Shown here: positions 6,419 through 15,772 of the stretch, piece by piece
How positions within the stretch are numbered: position 1 is the first letter of the stretch
Layout: each line of letters opens with the position of its first letter
Assembly (NCBI GenBank): GCA_009664345.1
Contig: CP043547.1
Span: 6,352,709-6,416,708, forward strand
DNA: 64,000 bases
DNA from: Planctomycetales bacterium 10988
GTDB lineage: Bacteria > Planctomycetota > Planctomycetia > Pirellulales > Pb10988
Reading direction: 5' to 3'
Notes under the pieces: generated by a model
Told to the model about the DNA's origin: nothing
Database searches by the model: none
Seen by the model: the letters and a program-made list of their open reading frames with translations, nothing else
Translations under genes and position numbers: made by a program

Positions 6419-7588
6419 ATGCGATTTTGGCTCGGAATGATTGTTTCAAGTTGTTTGCTCTTCGCCTTGGGCGGGCTAGTCGCGGTCTGGGATCAATCGG
6501 CTGACGACTCCTTAAACACAGCTGTTCAACTTTCTCGACCGGCGTTCTATCCAAAGGATCAACCTCAGCCCAAGGCCGTCCTTGTCGGCGAACCTATGTT
6601 TGATTTCGGTACGCAGGAAGTCAGCACAACCAGCAGTCATCAGTTTCTTATTCGGAACGAAGGCGAAGCGGACCTCATCTTAGGCGTCGGGGAGACGACA
6701 AGTCGCTCTATCTTTCCTGATTTTGCTCAGCCCCGTATTCCGCCAGGGGGAGAAGAATGGATTACCGTAGAATGGGCCATCGAGACAAGCCTTGAATACT
6801 TCCGGGAATCGACAACACTTCTTACCAATGATCGGCAAATGCCCTCGATCCCGCTCACCATCAAGGGAAGAATTGCGAAATTGCTGGAAACCAAGCCCGA
6901 TCACCTCATCTTGGAAGTGATGATGGCCGATCAAATCAATAAGGTTGATTTTGCTCTTTATTCCAAAGAAGTCGAGTCGTTTGAGGTTTTGAAGCATGAA
7001 TTCAAGACTGTGGGACTCGATCGCTACTTCTCGGCGGAATTTATCCCATTACAGGTGCGAGACTTGGAAAGGTTGGACGCACAGGGTGGCTATCGTGCGA
7101 TCATCACGATTCAGCCGGGGATGGACCTGGGGCGATTCGATCAGGTTTTGCAAATAGAAACGAACATCGCGAACCGGGCTCCCATCGAATACAACATTCG
7201 AGGCACCTTCCAAGGAAAACTTTCGCTCCTTGGTGGGCAAGGGGCTTGGGACCCGAAGACCGGGATTCTTGACCTGGGACTGATACGTTCGTCTCGGGGC
7301 ATTAATCTTCCCATGAAGCTAGTCGTTCGTGACCCGGAGAACACGGAGGTAAAGATCGAAGAGGTCTTCACTTATCCCAAGGATGGCCTAGAAGTCACCG
7401 TGGGAGAAAGGGAACGTCTCGGGGAATTCTATGCCTATCCGTTAACGATTAAGATTCCACGGGGAACGAAAAACATGAATTATCTCAGTACGAACGCAAC
7501 CGGTCGTGGGGAGATTTATCTACGAACCAACCACCCTGAAACGCCCAACTTTTTGATTTTGGTCGAATTTGCTGTCGTCGAACAGTAA
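6419..7588 (+). CDS. DUF1573 domain protein, exported or membrane-anchored
   Basis: A 389-residue protein from the ATG at 6419, chosen because GAGGAAG precedes it and because it places a hydrophobic segment (FWLGMIVSSCLLFALGGLVA) at the very N-terminus. Around residues 55-140 it has the DUF1573 pattern: FDFGTQEV, then FLIRNEGEADLIL, an Ig-like fold that in other families sits next to envelope or cilium proteins. A second Ig-like region follows (residues 240-385). DUF1573 proteins are very common in planctomycetes and their role is unknown. It is the first gene of a plus-strand run with two multiheme cytochromes and a barrel protein, 130 bp before the next gene. A scaffold or assembly role for those cytochromes is inference. 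Confidence 0.85.
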   Translation: MRFWLGMIVSSCLLFALGGLVAVWDQSADDSLNTAVQLSRPAFYPKDQPQPKAVLVGEPMFDFGTQEVSTTSSHQFLIRNEGEADLILGVGETTSRSIFPDFAQPRIPPGGEEWITVEWAIETSLEYFRESTTLLTNDRQMPSIPLTIKGRIAKLLETKPDHLILEVMMADQINKVDFALYSKEVESFEVLKHEFKTVGLDRYFSAEFIPLQVRDLERLDAQGGYRAIITIQPGMDLGRFDQVLQIETNIANRAPIEYNIRGTFQGKLSLLGGQGAWDPKTGILDLGLIRSSRGINLPMKLVVRDPENTEVKIEEVFTYPKDGLEVTVGERERLGEFYAYPLTIKIPRGTKNMNYLSTNATGRGEIYLRTNHPETPNFLILVEFAVVEQ

Positions 7589-7718
7589 CGATTGCAATGG
7601 AATGGAACATTGCGACCATGCTCCCGCCCTACAGGATGTGCAGTATGGAGGCGGTTTGAAAGCTCATTGAAGCTGGTGAGTTTTTGACGGCCTCTGGAGG
7701 AAAAAAGGAAGTTTCTCT

Positions 7719-9614
7719 ATGGACACGACTCCGCACGAGCGATGGAAACGGACCTCCCCCCAAGGACGCTGGCATTGGCTGGGAGTCTCCCTGATGGGCC
7801 TCGTTGCTGCCGGGTGTTGGCAACACGCGCAACAAATCACGACCCCGGCTCCGGTTCCATATCCACATTTTGCCACCAAACCGGTTACGCCGGTTGCCGT
7901 TGTGCCTCAAGAAATTGCTCCTACCGAAGCTCCCCGAACGGCGGCTCCTCAATCCGCCCGTCGTCAAACAGAGAAACAAACGGTCTCTCCGAGCGAAGTG
8001 AATACGCCTCGTTTGGCAATCGAAACCCCTGCGGTGAAGCCAACGCCTCATCAACCGGTCTCGTCTGATCTGGAAGAATTAAAGATCGAACTTGCCCAGC
8101 AACCAACTCCAGCTCCGGCTGCCCCGACTCCGGCAGAACCGAGACTCGCCGAGCCAACGCCAGCGGAACCTACCCCAGCGATGCCAACCCCGGCGGAACC
8201 GACTCCGGTCCAGGCGACTCCTCCGAAAACAGCCGGTATTGCCTCTTTCCAAGTTCAGGCGGAGTCCATTGAGAAATGGGAAAAGCCCGCTCTTACACTG
8301 GTTTTCACAGGGGATCAACATGGCTACATCGAGCCGTGTGGTTGCTCGGGACTCGAAAACAAAAAAGGAGGACTGGCGCGGAGGTATTCTTTCTTAGATA
8401 CACTCCGTGCGAAAGATTGGAGCATTGTCCCTTGCGATCTCGGCGGACAAGTCAAACGAAATGGCCCTCAAGCCGTGATGAAATTTCATCAAACGATCGA
8501 AGGGCTGGCGAAAATGGAATACGCCGCGATTGCCCTTGGGGAGTCTGATCTTCTTCTGCCTGCCGGTGACTTGGTAAGCAATGTCGTTGAATCCAAAAAC
8601 CACTTTTGTAGTGCGAATGCCAGCCTGTTTGGGAAAGATGCGGGGCTGACTCCTCGCTATCGGATCGTTGAGCAACAAGGCTACAAGATCGGGATTACTT
8701 CGGTTGTCCTCTCGGAAAATCGTACGCTTTCTTCCAGTACGGAGATCGAACTTCAACCCGCTCGCGAAGCACTGCGTGAAATCCTTCCTGAACTGAAATC
8801 CAAAGCAAATTACCTTGTTTTACTTGTAAACGGTTCAAAAACCGAAGCGATTCAACTATCTCAAGAATTTGGCGAATTTCATATTGTCGTCACGAAGGCC
8901 GATGCCGCGGAGCCGCCTGCTAGCCCTTCAAAAGTTCCTCAGCAAAACACCTTGTTGATCGAGCTTGGTCACAAAGCAATGCACGCGATTGCGATCGGGT
9001 TGCCCCAGTCGCCTGAGGAAGTTTGGAAGTACGCAAAAGTTCAGCTCGATAATCACTTCGGCGAAGCAGACCCCATGAAAGTTTTACTGGCCAATTATCA
9101 GGATCAATTAAAAACCTTGGGACTTGAGGGCTTAGGCATTCGTCCACGTCCTCATCCATCCGGAAGAACGTTTGTAGGCTCCGGCACTTGCGGCGAATGC
9201 CACACGACAGCCCATGCCATTTGGGACGGGACCCCGCATGCCCACGCTTTGGAAACCTTAGTAGAATTGGAAATCCCCCGGCATTATGACCCGGAATGTC
9301 TCAGTTGCCATGTCGTCGGCTGGGAACCACAACGCTATCTTCCTTTCCAAAGTGGATATCTGGGCGTGCAGAAAACCCCGAACCTTCATGACAATGGTTG
9401 CGAAAACTGTCATGGTCCCGGATCGGAACACGTCGCGGCGGAATACGGCGAAGTAGATTTAACCGAAGATGCCATTCAAGCTCGGCGGATGGCAATGAGG
9501 GTTACGAAAGAACAGTCGAAGCAAACTTGCCTGGAATGTCATGATATCGACAATAGCCCCGATTTTGACTTCGACGAATATTGGCCCCAAGTGGAACATA
9601 TTGGAAAGTATTAA
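7719..9614 (+). CDS. Lipoprotein tetraheme cytochrome c with degenerate metallophosphatase-like domain
   Basis: A 631-residue protein. The N-terminus has a basic stretch, a hydrophobic core and a lipobox (LVAAGC, Cys33), so it is a predicted lipoprotein. Residues ~60-175 form a Pro/Ala/Thr-rich linker with PTPAEP repeats. Residues ~195-470 resemble the UshA/5'-nucleotidase metallophosphatase fold: GDQHGYIEPCGCS, GGLARR, then ALGESDLL where the family normally has GN-H-[ED]. The catalytic His is therefore absent. The C-terminal part matches cytochrome c554-like domains with four CxxCH sites at C491, C527, C561 and C604. It probably transfers electrons at the membrane surface. The substrate and any residual phosphatase activity are unknown. 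It is followed by a second multiheme cytochrome in the same direction. Confidence 0.88.
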   Translation: MDTTPHERWKRTSPQGRWHWLGVSLMGLVAAGCWQHAQQITTPAPVPYPHFATKPVTPVAVVPQEIAPTEAPRTAAPQSARRQTEKQTVSPSEVNTPRLAIETPAVKPTPHQPVSSDLEELKIELAQQPTPAPAAPTPAEPRLAEPTPAEPTPAMPTPAEPTPVQATPPKTAGIASFQVQAESIEKWEKPALTLVFTGDQHGYIEPCGCSGLENKKGGLARRYSFLDTLRAKDWSIVPCDLGGQVKRNGPQAVMKFHQTIEGLAKMEYAAIALGESDLLLPAGDLVSNVVESKNHFCSANASLFGKDAGLTPRYRIVEQQGYKIGITSVVLSENRTLSSSTEIELQPAREALREILPELKSKANYLVLLVNGSKTEAIQLSQEFGEFHIVVTKADAAEPPASPSKVPQQNTLLIELGHKAMHAIAIGLPQSPEEVWKYAKVQLDNHFGEADPMKVLLANYQDQLKTLGLEGLGIRPRPHPSGRTFVGSGTCGECHTTAHAIWDGTPHAHALETLVELEIPRHYDPECLSCHVVGWEPQRYLPFQSGYLGVQKTPNLHDNGCENCHGPGSEHVAAEYGEVDLTEDAIQARRMAMRVTKEQSKQTCLECHDIDNSPDFDFDEYWPQVEHIGKY

Positions 9615-9776
9615 TCCTCGTCGCTGCTGAGTGCCGTTGGATTGAAGTAGCATTTAATTAATCTGGGCAATTTGGCCACACTTTGATATTCTCTCAAGTT
9701 ACAAGTGGATTCATTCCGATTTTTAAGAAAAGCGCACGACTTTTCCACTTCTCCCTTTGTGCCTGAGAGTCAACCG

Positions 9777-11813
9777 ATGCAGAAATGGATTTCCGCAGGG
9801 CGTCCCCTTCTCGACAGAATTCTGCGAATACGCCGACTGATCGGCCAACTCGATGCCGTGACGCTCGGGATGTTCGTGGTCGTCCTGGTTGCCGCTTCCC
9901 TTCTTTATTTGTTCGCTCCTCCCGAAAGCCGCCCGGTTCAGGCAACTCCGCCCTTGGTTCAGCATGCCCCTTTTCCTTTGGACCCGGATTGGCCTGCGGT
10001 TCGATTGATCTTGGATCAAAAATGTTTGGCTTGCCATCGCCCTGATAGCGACCGAACGGATTTCAGCTCCTTTCAAAGCCTACGAGCAGCGAATATGGAT
10101 GGGGAACCGCTGATCATTGCAGGGAATGCGGAAGATTCGCTCCTCTTTCAATATGTTGATTGGAATCACGCTTTTGCTGCGGACTGCGATTCCTCGGATG
10201 AGCCGTATATGCCGCCGAAGGAATGGGATTGGTTAACGGGAGGACAACTCGAAACCTTACGGCGTTGGATCGATCGCGGTGCTCATGAATATCAGCCCGT
10301 CTCCGGTCCCTTGCCGAGTAAGCGACGGCTCTCCGAAATGGATTTCCCCTCTGCAAAAACCTGTGGAAGTTGCCATCCCAAGCAATATGAAGAATGGTCT
10401 CGCTCGATGCACCATTATGCCCAGCATAGTCCGGTCTTCGAGGCATTTACCTTAACATTGATCGAGCGTACCGGCGGAACGATCGGAACTTTTTGCACAC
10501 GCTGTCATACCCCGATCGGGATCGCCCTGGGAGAAACGGCTTCGACCCGAAATGTTCACCGTTCTCAGATTTCAATGGAAGGCGTAAGTTGCGTTGTTTG
10601 CCATCGGCCCGCAGGCGAAACTTACAAATCCAGCGGTCGCGTGGCAATCCTTGCCGGGGGAACACTGGATCAATGTGTTTACGGACCTTTTGATCATTCC
10701 GTTAGTGAAGAACTCTCTACTCACCCATCCAAGGGAAGTGCTGCTCTGAAAAGTTCTGCCTTTTGTGGAAGTTGCCACGATGTGACCAATCCGCAAGGGG
10801 TTCGATTAGAAGAAGCTTTCAGCGAATGGCAAAACAGCCCCGCCGCGAAGGACGGGATCACTTGTCAGAATTGTCACATGGGACCTGTCCAAGGAAAGCC
10901 GATTCCTGATCATCAGCGACCTTTAGGCCGAGCCGCAGTTGTGCCTGGGGTTGATCCTTCTCGGATTCCACTCCGTCGGCTTTCGGATCATACGTTCGCC
11001 GGTCCGGATTATTCATTGCTGCCCGATACCGAGTTTCCGGAAAAATTGGACTGGATGTATGAGCAAGATTATTCTTGTCCAGAATGTTTAAATCCGCATC
11101 AACAAAAGACATTACATGAGTTGCGACAGAAAAACCGTTGGCAACTGCAAACGGCGGACAGTAAACGCTATGAACTGTTAAAAAATGCCGCTGAGATTAA
11201 AGTGACCCATCCTCGACAAGCTGCCTGTGGAGAAAAGATCAAGCTAGACGTGTGTGTACAAAGCAAAGTGGCCGGACACAATCTGCCAACGGGCTTTACC
11301 GCGGAACGTCAGATTTGGTTGGAAGTCATTGTCCGTGATCCGAGTGGAAAGATTATCTTTAACTCTGGAGATGTCGACCCTGAAGGGGATTTAAGGGATG
11401 AACATAGTTACTATGTCGAGATTGGAAAACTGCCGGCGGATCGACATTTATTTAATTTACAAAGTAAGTTTGTTGCATTGACTTTTCGAGGTACGGAAAG
11501 AAGTTTAATTATTCCAGTCAATCGACATTTAGCTCCTTTAAATGTTGTTCGACCTTCCACGGAGTTATCGGCTTCGTTTGGAAGACCACGAGGTTTTCGT
11601 GTGGCCAAGGCGAGCATTCCACCCTTGAGTTCGCGGTCGAAAGCTTACCCCGTTGTTTTTCATCAGCCGGGTCCCCACCATCTTTCAGTCCGTTTAAACT
11701 TCCGTCATTTGCCACCTGCTTTGTTTGAACATATTGGCTTACCGCATTTAAAACATTTGGTCGAAACGGTCGTTATGGATGAGTATCAACAAGTTATACA
11801 GGTTATGCCATAG
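9777..11813 (+). CDS. Membrane-anchored hexaheme cytochrome c (PSCyt1-like and c554-like)
   Basis: A 678-residue protein from the ATG at 9777; a GTG at 9705 would add 24 residues. One transmembrane segment (VTLGMFVVVLVAASLLYLF) anchors it near the N-terminus. Six CxxCH sites lie at C83, C196, C240, C272, C330 and C363. The first, followed by a segment on storing and ordering by LRRWIDRGA, resembles the planctomycete-type PSCyt1 domain; the other five lie in a cytochrome c554/NrfB-like region. The C-terminal ~280 residues lack hemes and look like beta-sandwich. Together with the preceding tetraheme lipoprotein and the following barrel it makes a plausible electron-transfer chain across the envelope. 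Electron donor and acceptor are unknown. The gap to the upstream gene is 162 bp. Confidence 0.88.
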   Translation: MQKWISAGRPLLDRILRIRRLIGQLDAVTLGMFVVVLVAASLLYLFAPPESRPVQATPPLVQHAPFPLDPDWPAVRLILDQKCLACHRPDSDRTDFSSFQSLRAANMDGEPLIIAGNAEDSLLFQYVDWNHAFAADCDSSDEPYMPPKEWDWLTGGQLETLRRWIDRGAHEYQPVSGPLPSKRRLSEMDFPSAKTCGSCHPKQYEEWSRSMHHYAQHSPVFEAFTLTLIERTGGTIGTFCTRCHTPIGIALGETASTRNVHRSQISMEGVSCVVCHRPAGETYKSSGRVAILAGGTLDQCVYGPFDHSVSEELSTHPSKGSAALKSSAFCGSCHDVTNPQGVRLEEAFSEWQNSPAAKDGITCQNCHMGPVQGKPIPDHQRPLGRAAVVPGVDPSRIPLRRLSDHTFAGPDYSLLPDTEFPEKLDWMYEQDYSCPECLNPHQQKTLHELRQKNRWQLQTADSKRYELLKNAAEIKVTHPRQAACGEKIKLDVCVQSKVAGHNLPTGFTAERQIWLEVIVRDPSGKIIFNSGDVDPEGDLRDEHSYYVEIGKLPADRHLFNLQSKFVALTFRGTERSLIIPVNRHLAPLNVVRPSTELSASFGRPRGFRVAKASIPPLSSRSKAYPVVFHQPGPHHLSVRLNFRHLPPALFEHIGLPHLKHLVETVVMDEYQQVIQVMP

Positions 11814-12004
11814 CCGACTCGTTCTTTATTGTATTTTTTTCTATTCATGAAAAAGACAAGTGAATCTCCAGCTTCCATAATAAGGACATAATAAAAGAGA
11901 TCATCATCTTTCCTAACAAACCTTCCTATTTCAATCAAAGTCGCTTTTATTATTTCATTTTGAAAAGGACTTTGTTCACCACTCACTGCACTGTATAACC
12001 GTAG

Positions 12005-13609
12005 ATGACGCTACCTGCTTGGTTCTGTCGATTTTTCTTGCAAAAGACCTTGATTTTTGGGGTCTTTTGGGGAACTGCGTCGATTCAGTTCGCTGCTGAG
12101 CCGGTAGAAATTTTATCGATTCCCCCTCAACCTGTGGAAGAACTCCCATTCTCAGAGGAGTTAACGAGTGAACCGCCTTGGAAGTCAATGGTCGTTCCTC
12201 CGCTTGAAGAGGAATTATACAATCATGGGGGGACGCATCTCTATCGACCCTTTGAATGCCACCCTTTTGAATATCATGAAAGTGTCAGAAATCATTCGCA
12301 TCCTTCTTGCAAATCTAACACTTGTGATATTTGTAGTGATCATTCTAGTCATTCAAAGTGTTTAAGACTGCCCGAGTGGTTTAAAGAACAGCAACCTTTC
12401 ACAGGTAAAGTTCCTTTTTTGGGTTCGGGGCCGATTTGTTTATCTGAACTTCATTGGCCGGGAAAGTATGGCTTCCATTGGGAACCACGTTTTGTCGGAT
12501 CAGGAAGCTATCAACTTTTTGGGCTCGCCTTTGAAGATGGTGATCAACGAACCGATGGCATTGGGCATCAATTATTGGTCGATTTAGACCTTCAGTTGAC
12601 AGGGACTGAGCGTGCTCATGTCCAGTTTCGCCCTTTAGGAAAAGAGAATAGTGGCGGGTCACTTTATCAATTGAATGACCCTGAAGGTTATAATGATAAT
12701 TCGACACTCATTCCTGATCGCTATTGGATTGAAGGCGAACTTTTTAGTCTTGCTAAAGGCTTGGGCATGGACCCTTTTGCCGTCCGAGATATCAACGGCG
12801 TGATCGGTAAATTTCCCATGTTTCTACATAATGGATATTTATTGAATGATGATCTTACAGGGCTCATCCTTAGCAAGAATAATTGGTACGCCCCGCCGCT
12901 GAGTAATTTAAATGCCCAATTCTTTTATGCCTTTGATGATGTGGATGCTTATCAAGATTCAAGTGCGGATTTGGTCGGCACGCATCTTTCGGCTGATTAT
13001 CAAGGGGACTTCATCGAGGCAACGTATGCGTATGTTTCCAATCAAGACCGCGGCGGGCTTGATCGGCAATACGCCGCACTGAGCTATACCAAGTTTGTTG
13101 GTCGTTGGACTTTTGCCGGTCGAGGAATGTTTCAGTGGGGAGAACGTCAAGGCAATGGGGCCGGCCAGCTTTTTGTCTTGGAATCCAACTTCACCCAGGT
13201 GCTGACCTGTGGGTGTCTTTATCAACTCGGGGTGAAGAAAACCGTTACGTATTGTAATGGTTTTGTTGCGACGGAAGGTTGGGATTCCATTAGTGGTGGG
13301 AATTTTGATCGACTGCGAAGTGCTTTGGAAGTAAACCCTTTGATCCGACTGTCTCGCCAGCGGAATCCGGATGACACCGCAGGAGTTGTTTTGGGAAGCC
13401 AGTTATTCCGGCATCATAAAGATGAATCGATCATTCCTGAATTTGTATATGAAAGCCCACAAGGCGATTCGGTCTTTGGGTTAGGACTTCGCTACTTTCG
13501 GAAGCTTAGCCCTCAATGTTTCTTGGAGTTGAGAGGTGTGAAGACCTTTTCAGAAGAGACAGACTATCGCCGTGAAGGGGCCTTTACCGGGCTAAGCTAT
13601 CTTTTTTAA
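12005..13609 (+). CDS. Predicted outer-membrane beta-barrel (porin-like) protein
   Basis: A 534-residue protein. The first ~31 residues form a signal peptide (KTLIFGVFWGTASIQFAA). After a Pro/Glu-rich segment comes a short Cys/His-rich stretch (residues ~99-120: four Cys and several His). From about residue 130 to the end the sequence alternates polar and hydrophobic residues with many aromatic positions (GKYGFHWEPRFVGSG, SLYQLNDPEGY) and ends in a Phe (GLSYLF), as in many outer-membrane barrels. I recognise no named family; planctomycetes encode large sets of such porin-like proteins. The ribosome-binding site before the ATG at 12005 is poor. Its position after two multiheme cytochromes suggests a porin-cytochrome conduit, which is inference. 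Confidence 0.75.
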   Translation: MTLPAWFCRFFLQKTLIFGVFWGTASIQFAAEPVEILSIPPQPVEELPFSEELTSEPPWKSMVVPPLEEELYNHGGTHLYRPFECHPFEYHESVRNHSHPSCKSNTCDICSDHSSHSKCLRLPEWFKEQQPFTGKVPFLGSGPICLSELHWPGKYGFHWEPRFVGSGSYQLFGLAFEDGDQRTDGIGHQLLVDLDLQLTGTERAHVQFRPLGKENSGGSLYQLNDPEGYNDNSTLIPDRYWIEGELFSLAKGLGMDPFAVRDINGVIGKFPMFLHNGYLLNDDLTGLILSKNNWYAPPLSNLNAQFFYAFDDVDAYQDSSADLVGTHLSADYQGDFIEATYAYVSNQDRGGLDRQYAALSYTKFVGRWTFAGRGMFQWGERQGNGAGQLFVLESNFTQVLTCGCLYQLGVKKTVTYCNGFVATEGWDSISGGNFDRLRSALEVNPLIRLSRQRNPDDTAGVVLGSQLFRHHKDESIIPEFVYESPQGDSVFGLGLRYFRKLSPQCFLELRGVKTFSEETDYRREGAFTGLSYLF

Positions 13610-13634: not shown

Positions 13635-14861
13635 TTATTTTGTTTCTCTAGGGAATTCACCAAACGGGGCTTCCCAATCTAGGCTGAAGCGAAGTTTCTC
13701 AACCTGCTGGCGTTTGGGGGCTACGAGGGTCACATTCGAGACCTCCCCGTGTGCGGTATCCGTGAAAACGGAGCGATCCGCTTGAGAACGCCCATTTTGC
13801 GAATGAGCCCCTTCTTGTAAGGTACTTGTCCCTGCCTTTTCAAGCCAATCTTCAAGGTGTTTGGCAACCTCTTCGGCATTCGAATATCGCTGCGCGGGTC
13901 GTTTCGCCATAAGTTTGCGACAGACCTTGACGATCTCCGGTGGAATATCAGGACGGTGCTGTTCCAGTGCAGGAGGCTCATGCAATTGGTGCATCAGCAA
14001 TCGTTGTGCAGGGATCGTTGCTTCGAACGGAACCTTGCCGGTCAGCAGGAAATACATAGTACAGCCGAGGCTATAAAGGTCCGCTCGCCCGTCAATACGG
14101 TGAGGATCGAGAGCTTGTTCCGGAGAAAGAAAGTCTAAGGTTCCCAGCATCCGACCATCGCCAGAGAGAGTTAAGGATTCCCCATCTGGGAGGAAAAGAC
14201 GAACCACGCCTAGGTCGCTGATCTTGACGACTCCTTGCTTGTTCATCAACAAGTTCGCAGGTTTGATATCTCGATGGACAAGGCCGTGCTGATGAATATG
14301 TCCCAAACCTCGCGCACTTTGGGCGATTACATGGGCGGCCTTCCGGTAAGACAGCGGGCCTTGTTTTCCGACAATTCGATTGAGATCGGACCCATTGACG
14401 AATTCCATGGCCATATAATGCATGTTCCCATGCTCACCCGAGTCGTAGGCTCGGACAATATGGGGATGTTTCAACGAGCGATGAGCGTCGGATTCATGCT
14501 GGAAACGCTGGAGCACGGTTTCATTGGAAGCCTGCGAGGGGATCATGATCTTGAGCGCGACGACTCGATCTAATTTTCGATGCTTCGCAAGATAGACATG
14601 ACTCATTCCGCCCCGACCGAGGGAACGCAACAGAGTATAAGAACCGACATGAAACCCACTGAATCCCCGCAAGAGATAGAGATGTTGCCAAGAGGTCAGG
14701 CGACGGGCTCGAATTAAGTGACGTCCAAGCGTATCGGCGCTAACTTCCTTTCCCAAGGAATGCTCTTGTAAGTCAGAAACGATTTCGTCGAGTTGTTGAG
14801 CGGAGATGAGCCGGCTTTGCAGGAGGAAGCGACGATAGTCTGTCAGCGTCATCGTAGTCAT
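13635..14861 (-). CDS. Soluble Ser/Thr protein kinase
   Basis: A 408-residue Hanks-type kinase from the ATG at 14861. Residues 1-74 form the short helical extension ending TSWQHLYLLRG-x-[FL] that often precedes planctomycete kinases. The catalytic domain (about 76-345) has LGRGGMSHVYLA, the ATP-anchoring K104 (ALKIM), HRDIKPAN with D198 and N203, DLG at 216-218 in place of DFG, and the SPEQ activation segment. All catalytic residues are present, so it should be active. There is no transmembrane segment or sensor domain after the kinase; the tail is short and polar, so it is cytosolic. It lies 50 bp downstream of an uncharacterised gene in the same direction, a likely partner or regulator. Confidence 0.95.
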   Translation of the reverse strand: MTTMTLTDYRRFLLQSRLISAQQLDEIVSDLQEHSLGKEVSADTLGRHLIRARRLTSWQHLYLLRGFSGFHVGSYTLLRSLGRGGMSHVYLAKHRKLDRVVALKIMIPSQASNETVLQRFQHESDAHRSLKHPHIVRAYDSGEHGNMHYMAMEFVNGSDLNRIVGKQGPLSYRKAAHVIAQSARGLGHIHQHGLVHRDIKPANLLMNKQGVVKISDLGVVRLFLPDGESLTLSGDGRMLGTLDFLSPEQALDPHRIDGRADLYSLGCTMYFLLTGKVPFEATIPAQRLLMHQLHEPPALEQHRPDIPPEIVKVCRKLMAKRPAQRYSNAEEVAKHLEDWLEKAGTSTLQEGAHSQNGRSQADRSVFTDTAHGEVSNVTLVAPKRQQVEKLRFSLDWEAPFGEFPRETK

Positions 14862-14911
14862 GATCGCATTCCTTTTAGATCGATTAAGATCATATCCTAT
14901 TAGCAGTCATG

Positions 14912-15772
14912 TCAGTTTGGGAGAGGAAGAATTTGTGCTAATAAAGAAGTTAACTGTTCGCGATAGTTTAAGCGGATAAGAAGTACACGATAGGTTCCGT
15001 CGAGAACAACCCAAGACCAGTCTTCATAAGGATTACTCAGAGTAATGAACCGAGGTTTCATTTCTGAAGCAATTAATCCATCATGAAAGACGGTTCTCCG
15101 AACGGAATTGCACAGGTCATGAACCTCGGAGAGACTGAGATGCCCTAGTCTTCGACAGCGAACCGGAGTCGGCAGCCGCGAAGGTTCCTCCGTGCGGATG
15201 AAAAGGATTGCCCCTTCAACGTGATCGAGAAATTCTTCATAAATCGTAAGGGGAAGGTCTTCAGGGAGAGTATCCCATCGTTTGCTTACGGCCAGAAGAA
15301 GTTCAAAGTAACTAAAGGTCATCTTTTCGTCGTACTGAGTGGATAATTCCTCAGATTGACAAGTCAGAGGCTCATTTTTGCAAGCGGAAATCAGCGAAAT
15401 CGCATAAGCCGCCGCTTGTTGCAATAAGGCTGCTCTTATCCATTCATATTCTACGATTCCTTGATTGACCAACCATTCGCCAAGTGGGAGATTCGCCGCC
15501 CTAGCATGTTGAACCTCTTCACTGAGTTGGTGCTGAAAGGTTTTGTTTACAAATTGAGGATGAAGTTCCGCTAGAAATTGGCCAAGCAACCCTTTAGAAG
15601 AAAGAGAATGTAACCAGCAGATTCGATCATCCTGAAGCGCGATGGTCCCTATTTGACAGCCATTCTCTTGATGAATCTGAATCGTCTGGGTTCCCCCTAA
15701 GGATTCAACAAGACGTAATAAGCTGAACAATGGATTAATCGTTCGAATAGAATCCAATGAAATAGTAGACAT
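14912..15772 (-). CDS. Protein of unknown function, possibly DUF4388/PATAN-like N-terminus
   Basis: A 286-residue cytosolic protein from the ATG at 15772, with no signal or membrane segment. The first ~60 residues (SLLRLVESLGGTQTIQIHQ, then IGTIALQDDRICWLHS) resemble the beta-rich DUF4388/PATAN module that accompanies bacterial signalling and small-GTPase systems. Residues 60-150 are helical. The C-terminal ~70 residues (EVHDLCNSVRRTVFHDGLI and following) could be roadblock-like, which is a weak guess. It sits immediately upstream of a Ser/Thr kinase on the same strand with a 50-bp gap, so the two are probably co-transcribed. I cannot assign a function. Confidence 0.8.
   Translation of the reverse strand: MSTISLDSIRTINPLFSLLRLVESLGGTQTIQIHQENGCQIGTIALQDDRICWLHSLSSKGLLGQFLAELHPQFVNKTFQHQLSEEVQHARAANLPLGEWLVNQGIVEYEWIRAALLQQAAAYAISLISACKNEPLTCQSEELSTQYDEKMTFSYFELLLAVSKRWDTLPEDLPLTIYEEFLDHVEGAILFIRTEEPSRLPTPVRCRRLGHLSLSEVHDLCNSVRRTVFHDGLIASEMKPRFITLSNPYEDWSWVVLDGTYRVLLIRLNYREQLTSLLAQILPLPN

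Follow-up and report, generated by a model that had tools for sequence, protein, structure and literature searches.

Two modules in a run of four genes

Does a run of four consecutive genes in Planctomycetales bacterium 10988 encode a porin-cytochrome system that carries electrons across the outer membrane? The window, that is the whole stretch of DNA that was analysed, comprises 64,000 nt of the forward strand (GCA_009664345.1, CP043547.1 positions 6,352,709-6,416,708), and a preliminary description of it had proposed such a conduit, built from a DUF1573 protein, a tetraheme lipoprotein, an inner-membrane anchored hexaheme cytochrome and a predicted outer-membrane barrel. The four plus-strand open reading frames and the gaps of 130, 162 and 191 bp between them were found exactly as first described. 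The features of the locus are as follows.

6419..7588, plus strand: DUF1573 protein, 389 aa, gene 1 of module 1, outside the cytochrome-porin pair (PF07610, 36 bits)
7719..9614, plus strand: likely lipoprotein with an UshA-like and a tetraheme domain, gene 2 of module 1 (NF041198, PF13435)
from about residue 192 (~8292), plus strand: UshA-like domain with PCGC motif (NF041198 match)
~9168-9611, plus strand: C-terminal tetraheme c554-like domain of the UshA-like protein (PF13435)
9777..11813, plus strand: hexaheme cytochrome, gene 1 of the conserved pair (module 2; six CXXCH, AF2 model)
9972..10301, plus strand: PSCyt1-like mono-heme domain, approximate extent (PF07635)
10338..11066, plus strand: predicted pentaheme PHC core (5ze8 profile, MccSep, NF040886)
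11184..11810, plus strand: predicted C-terminal Ig-like beta domain of the cytochrome (model strands 472-677)
12005..13609, plus strand: predicted outer-membrane porin, gene 2 of the conserved pair (AF2 model, structural matches)
12251..12361, plus strand: Cys/His-rich insertion in the N-terminal part of the porin (gap in the eight other rows of a nine-ortholog alignment)
12482..13606, plus strand: predicted barrel domain, about 375 residues and about 18 strands (DSSP on the model)

Convergent with the porin gene, and with no evident link to it, a Ser/Thr protein kinase and a weakly DUF4388-like protein are encoded at 13635-15772 on the minus strand.

The reading of all four genes as one porin-cytochrome operon, as first proposed, is favoured by their common strand, by gaps of less than 200 bp and by the lack of a terminator-like site in any of the three gaps; promoter-like matches in the same gaps were near chance level. 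Comparison across genomes, however, led us to reject a shared four-gene operon as a conserved unit. No DUF1573 or UshA-like gene was found near the cytochrome gene in 44 planctomycete loci, and in nine other genomes where a single contig carries the UshA-like gene as well as the cytochrome gene, 0.2-4.9 Mb separate the two, which makes a single operon very improbable. Since the preliminary description had itself named a gene order that is not conserved as grounds for refutation, its four-gene unit falls: only the DUF1573-UshA-like pair and the cytochrome-porin pair are each conserved. The locus consists of two unrelated modules, which meet only in this genome among those compared.

The association of cytochrome and porin is strongly supported, and for the third and fourth genes only. 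Among 146 related genomes, the cytochrome (E<=1e-20) and the barrel (E<=1e-5) were found in an identical set of 45, and in all 45 the two genes were adjacent on the same contig and strand with the cytochrome first (tables compared by eye). The log10 chance of identical genome sets was -38, a figure that treats genomes as independent, which related genomes are not; presence and absence of the pair were scattered across several families. In GTDB genomes, the barrel gene adjoined the cytochrome gene in every one of the 42 planctomycete loci (out of the 44) with enough contig, and the two genes overlapped by 4 bp in 12 of these 42. Cytochrome (9777-11813) and porin (12005-13609) are therefore inherited together and as neighbours.

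The DUF1573 and UshA-like/tetraheme proteins

The DUF1573 assignment of the first gene held, with PF07610 scoring 36 bits in the Pfam search against a cut-off of 26.1. The second gene had been called a tetraheme lipoprotein, and its four CXXCH motifs were borne out and it remains a likely lipoprotein; an N-terminal UshA-like domain had, however, been overlooked. Its product matched PF13435 (Cytochrome_C554) above the Pfam cut-off (E 1.4e-11) and NF041198 (UshA-like) with E 3.8e-56, the latter at 190.7 bits and so below the cut-off of 275, and among solved structures it matched a 5'-nucleotidase (2z1a, E 1.1e-6) and cytochrome c554 (1bvb, E 2e-5). The PCGC motif and the four CXXCH were kept in all 13 aligned UshA-like/tetraheme sequences, in which the phosphatase metal ligands were not kept. 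Because these ligands are lost while PCGC is invariant, the UshA-like domain appears degenerate and is probably not a working phosphatase.

Both UshA-like (CxU) and OS_HP2 DUF1573 (UxC) families also occur as selenoproteins (PMC2398784). The protein studied here resembles the NF041198 UshA-like (seleno)proteins in the fusion of an UshA-like domain with PCG(C/U) to a c554-like cytochrome and in its DUF1573 neighbour, but differs from them in having Cys in place of Sec and in its score below the equivalog cut-off. The DUF1573 protein likewise differs from the OS_HP2/DUF1573 selenoproteins in lacking a UxC/CxC motif and in scoring below the equivalog cut-off.

The UshA-like/tetraheme gene was present in 140 of the 146 related genomes (E<=1e-25), usually with a DUF1573 gene upstream, and where top matches to both were compared the DUF1573 gene lay directly upstream in 118 of 129 genomes. 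Module 1 is a near-universal pair in the order, independent of the cytochrome-porin pair. Its neighbours in other genomes (O-antigen ligase, glycosyl transferase, DUF4416, prolyl-tRNA synthetase) carried no clear meaning. We infer that module 1 is housekeeping-like and that its place beside the cytochrome-porin pair is due to chance.

The hexaheme cytochrome

Six CXXCH motifs (residues 83, 196, 240, 272, 330 and 363) were present in the cytochrome, and Pfam matched it to both the c554-like and the PSCyt1-like domain first noted at this locus, Cytochrome_C554 lying above its cut-off and PSCyt1 (PF07635, 22.0 bits) exactly at it. The AF2 model was confident (pLDDT 87.6), and its residues 188-674 superposed on cytochrome c552 of Thermochromatium tepidum (5ZE8) with Z 27.4 over 342 residues (rmsd 2.8 A, 22% identity). 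Profile comparison pointed to the same structure (5ze8, E 1.9e-20) and to MccSep, a multiheme cytochrome c selenoprotein (9wt8, E 1.7e-7). The ExtKL equivalog model NF040886 gave E 4.2e-13 and 48.7 bits, below its cut-off of 250, so that by this model the cytochrome is a relative of ExtKL and not an ortholog. Residues about 470-678 were modelled as an Ig-like domain, mostly with pLDDT >90 and with Ig-like structural matches at Z about 10. The cytochrome is thus predicted to consist of a core of the PHC family, to which T. tepidum c552 and Geobacter ExtKL belong, with an Ig-like domain and an extra N-terminal heme domain. The T. tepidum protein shares the pentaheme core and the Ig-like domain but lacks the fused PSCyt1 heme domain.

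Alignment of 39 hexaheme and 16 pentaheme sequences showed the five core CXXCH to be invariant in all 55. The layout of one plus five hemes was kept in 39/39 hexaheme rows and the N-terminal PSCyt1 heme domain occurred in 0/16 pentaheme rows, and in this alignment only the planctomycete hexaheme clade has that domain. A tree placed the planctomycete hexaheme sequences in one group against an alpha/gamma group (100/99 support), with long branches elsewhere. Conserved His and Met residues (H212, H316, H405, H501 and M368) are candidate ligands of the core hemes, and all five core hemes may be six-coordinate; if so, pure electron transfer would fit better than catalysis. To our knowledge, no enzyme activity has been assigned to the c552 homolog. 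The PHC family, ExtKL included, has been counted among potentially catalytic cytochromes (PMC11976967).

An A-x-A-like cleavage motif followed the hydrophobic stretch in nearly all hexaheme orthologs, as judged by eye and not by a signal-peptide predictor. Because of this motif a cleaved signal peptide is likelier than an anchor, and the protein is probably released into the periplasm. Thus, while the six hemes of the proposed inner-membrane anchored hexaheme cytochrome were confirmed, its anchor is not established.

The barrel

The fourth gene was first described as encoding a predicted outer-membrane barrel of no named family, and both parts of that description stood. Its AF2 model, which rests on nine sequences, has a mean pLDDT of 62.9 (about 80 in the barrel region) and comprises about 130 low-confidence N-terminal residues followed by a beta-barrel of about 18 strands and about 375 residues that ends in Phe. 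Pfam returned no family at E<=1, MtrB/PioB (PF11854) included, for this protein and eight orthologs, and the barrel profile matched no solved structure by sequence at E<=1, solved porins included. By structure, the model resembled MOMP (Z 22.9), OccK/OprD (Z about 22) and AlgE (Z about 21.6), and it is predicted to be an OprD/MOMP-like outer-membrane porin of about 18 strands. The insertion at 12251-12361, with six Cys and several His, was found in this genome only among the nine aligned orthologs and is possibly metal-binding.

Pentaheme relatives

Pentaheme relatives with a related barrel gene behind them were found in Alphaproteobacteria (Thalassobaculum, Tistlia, Roseibium and others), in one Methylococcaceae MAG and in further planctomycetes, Aporhodopirellula among them. 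Most of the alphaproteobacterial pairs are followed by genes for a tetraheme c554 protein and a decaheme, and a cNMP-binding/4Fe-4S (cNMP-Fer4) fusion was also present in pentaheme clusters with annotated neighbours, one of which has an FNR-like oxidoreductase. One gene set recurs in Alphaproteobacteria (L092, L094, L096-L098, L100-L102) and in the planctomycete locus L043: it comprises the pentaheme PHC, the porin, a tetraheme c554, the cNMP-binding/4Fe-4S fusion and a decaheme whose N-terminal part bears a Cys-rich segment. The planctomycete locus L042 shows part of this set. The cluster decahemes carry their Cys-rich region before a single hydrophobic stretch, with no lipobox there, and from these features look inner-membrane bound; some pentaheme clusters carry a decaheme with an MtrC/F-like domain. 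The recurrent gene set looks as if it feeds electrons from the inner membrane to the PHC.

No related barrel was found beside PHC relatives in Desulfobulbaceae (cable bacteria included), Desulfuromonadales and Nitrospirota. The conserved neighbours of lone PHCs in Desulfobulbaceae and Nitrospirae, considered as possible partners, were unrelated genes.

Comparison with known porin-cytochrome systems

The barrel of an MtrAB/Pcc-type conduit has about 26 strands and sheathes a multiheme wire. The pair described here shares with such conduits a porin gene adjoining that of a multiheme cytochrome, as seen in 45/45 genomes, and this part of the original porin-cytochrome proposal stood for genes 3 and 4, given their shared set of 45/146 genomes. 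Its MtrCAB/Pcc type, however, did not, on grounds of barrel size, family and fold. The barrel has about 18 strands in the model, and MtrB/PioB membership was rejected, there being no Pfam match to that family in the protein, in its eight orthologs or anywhere in the whole genome. MtrB-type structures were also absent among the 50 structural matches listed for the barrel, which proves nothing by itself. In place of a periplasmic cytochrome of the MtrA/OmaB type there is a predicted PHC fold, with the DmsE/MtrA-type model TIGR03508 at 22.9 bits against a cut-off of 192, and no surface cytochrome is conserved with the pair. Because the barrel is too small, has no MtrB/PioB match and accompanies a PHC rather than an MtrA-type cytochrome, an MtrAB/Pcc-type conduit is not supported.

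The nearest working counterpart, by analogy, comes from Geobacter, where the gene of the outer-membrane porin ExtI adjoins that of ExtKL and where loss of ExtI impairs selenite/tellurite reduction (PMC5877670). As here, a porin gene lies near that of an exported PHC-family pentaheme cytochrome with an Ig-like domain (PMC5877670, PMC6148476, PMC11976967). In contrast to the Geobacter extHIJKL cluster, the planctomycete pair lacks a rhodanese (ExtH), ExtJ and selenocysteine, has the reverse gene order and carries an extra N-terminal heme. ExtI has 21 predicted transmembrane strands against about 18 here, and the likeness between the two is one of general porin fold and gene context. Within the PVC superphylum, porin-multiheme pairs have been proposed in Verrucomicrobia; these differ in that their porins have 20 or more predicted transmembrane motifs and their cytochromes are octaheme, and they were proposed as conduits (PMC5615132).

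Possible functions of the pair

The cytochrome-porin pair resembles a redox protein supplied by a pore more than it does any known electron-conducting barrel, and with a probability of about one half we read it as a two-gene redox module. A soluble electron acceptor, whether oxyanion or small organic molecule, would be let selectively through the outer membrane by the porin and reduced in the periplasm below by the cytochrome; Geobacter offers a parallel in ExtI and ExtKL, with their link to selenite/tellurite reduction. The fused PSCyt1 heme would take over electron delivery, for which pentaheme clusters would instead use separate tetraheme and decaheme partners.

Extracellular electron transfer must also be weighed, since ExtI/ExtKL, the nearest pair known, is part of a cluster, extHIJKL, that was itself proposed as a conduit in Geobacter; a strain with only this cluster still reached up to about 50% (Fe(III) oxide) and 75% (Mn(IV) oxide) of wild-type reduction (PMC6148476). 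A new type of trans-outer-membrane conduit, in which a cytochrome lodged within the small barrel or docked beneath it would exchange electrons with the outside, would accord with that partial activity, with the obligate pairing and with a porin-cytochrome gene pattern that is the same as in known conduits. PHC relatives have moreover been discussed as possible nanowire formers (PMC11976967), and some pentaheme clusters add the decaheme with an MtrC/F-like domain. The small barrel, the lack of any MtrB/PioB match in protein or genome, the want of an outer-surface multiheme lipoprotein conserved alongside the pair and the apparently inner-membrane-bound cluster decahemes without lipobox all speak against such a conduit, which we regard as unlikely. 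Electron flow in the oxidative direction, with the porin admitting a soluble donor that the cytochrome oxidises for the respiratory chain, seems a little less likely still: it would suit the cultured hosts, as Blastopirellula, Roseibium and the like are described as aerobes, and the source of the c552 homolog, T. tepidum, a sulfur-oxidising phototroph, but the NAD(P)H-type oxidoreductase and ferredoxin genes of the clusters suit electrons leaving the cytoplasm better, and the window holds no hint of a donor. That the two genes are co-inherited for a role outside electron transfer, for instance because the cytochrome stores heme or metal while the porin serves as a nutrient channel unconnected with it, is hardly credible, given that the five-heme core never varies and that the pairing is obligate across phyla.

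No earlier description of the planctomycete PHC-porin pair, and no paper on the MccSep structures, was found in the literature searched, which was mostly that available without subscription. It is a tentative and rather doubtful proposition that a PHC and a small porin, obligately coupled, make up a widespread and so far undescribed respiratory module, shared by planctomycetes and marine Alphaproteobacteria, that moves electrons across the outer membrane with no barrel of the MtrB type. The Geobacter ExtI/ExtKL arrangement may, as the comparison suggests, be one case of a broader porin-plus-PHC design. Planctomycetes are rich in uncharacterised cytochromes, one of which now has a defined (modelled) fold, an obligate partner and a known distribution, and its role could be tested in the cultured strains Blastopirellula marina, Thalassoglobus, Thalassobaculum and Roseibium. 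In the genome of strain 10988 itself, the sole further c554/paired-CXXCH match lies in an 854-aa open frame on the minus strand (G000:C1:3983050-3983601).
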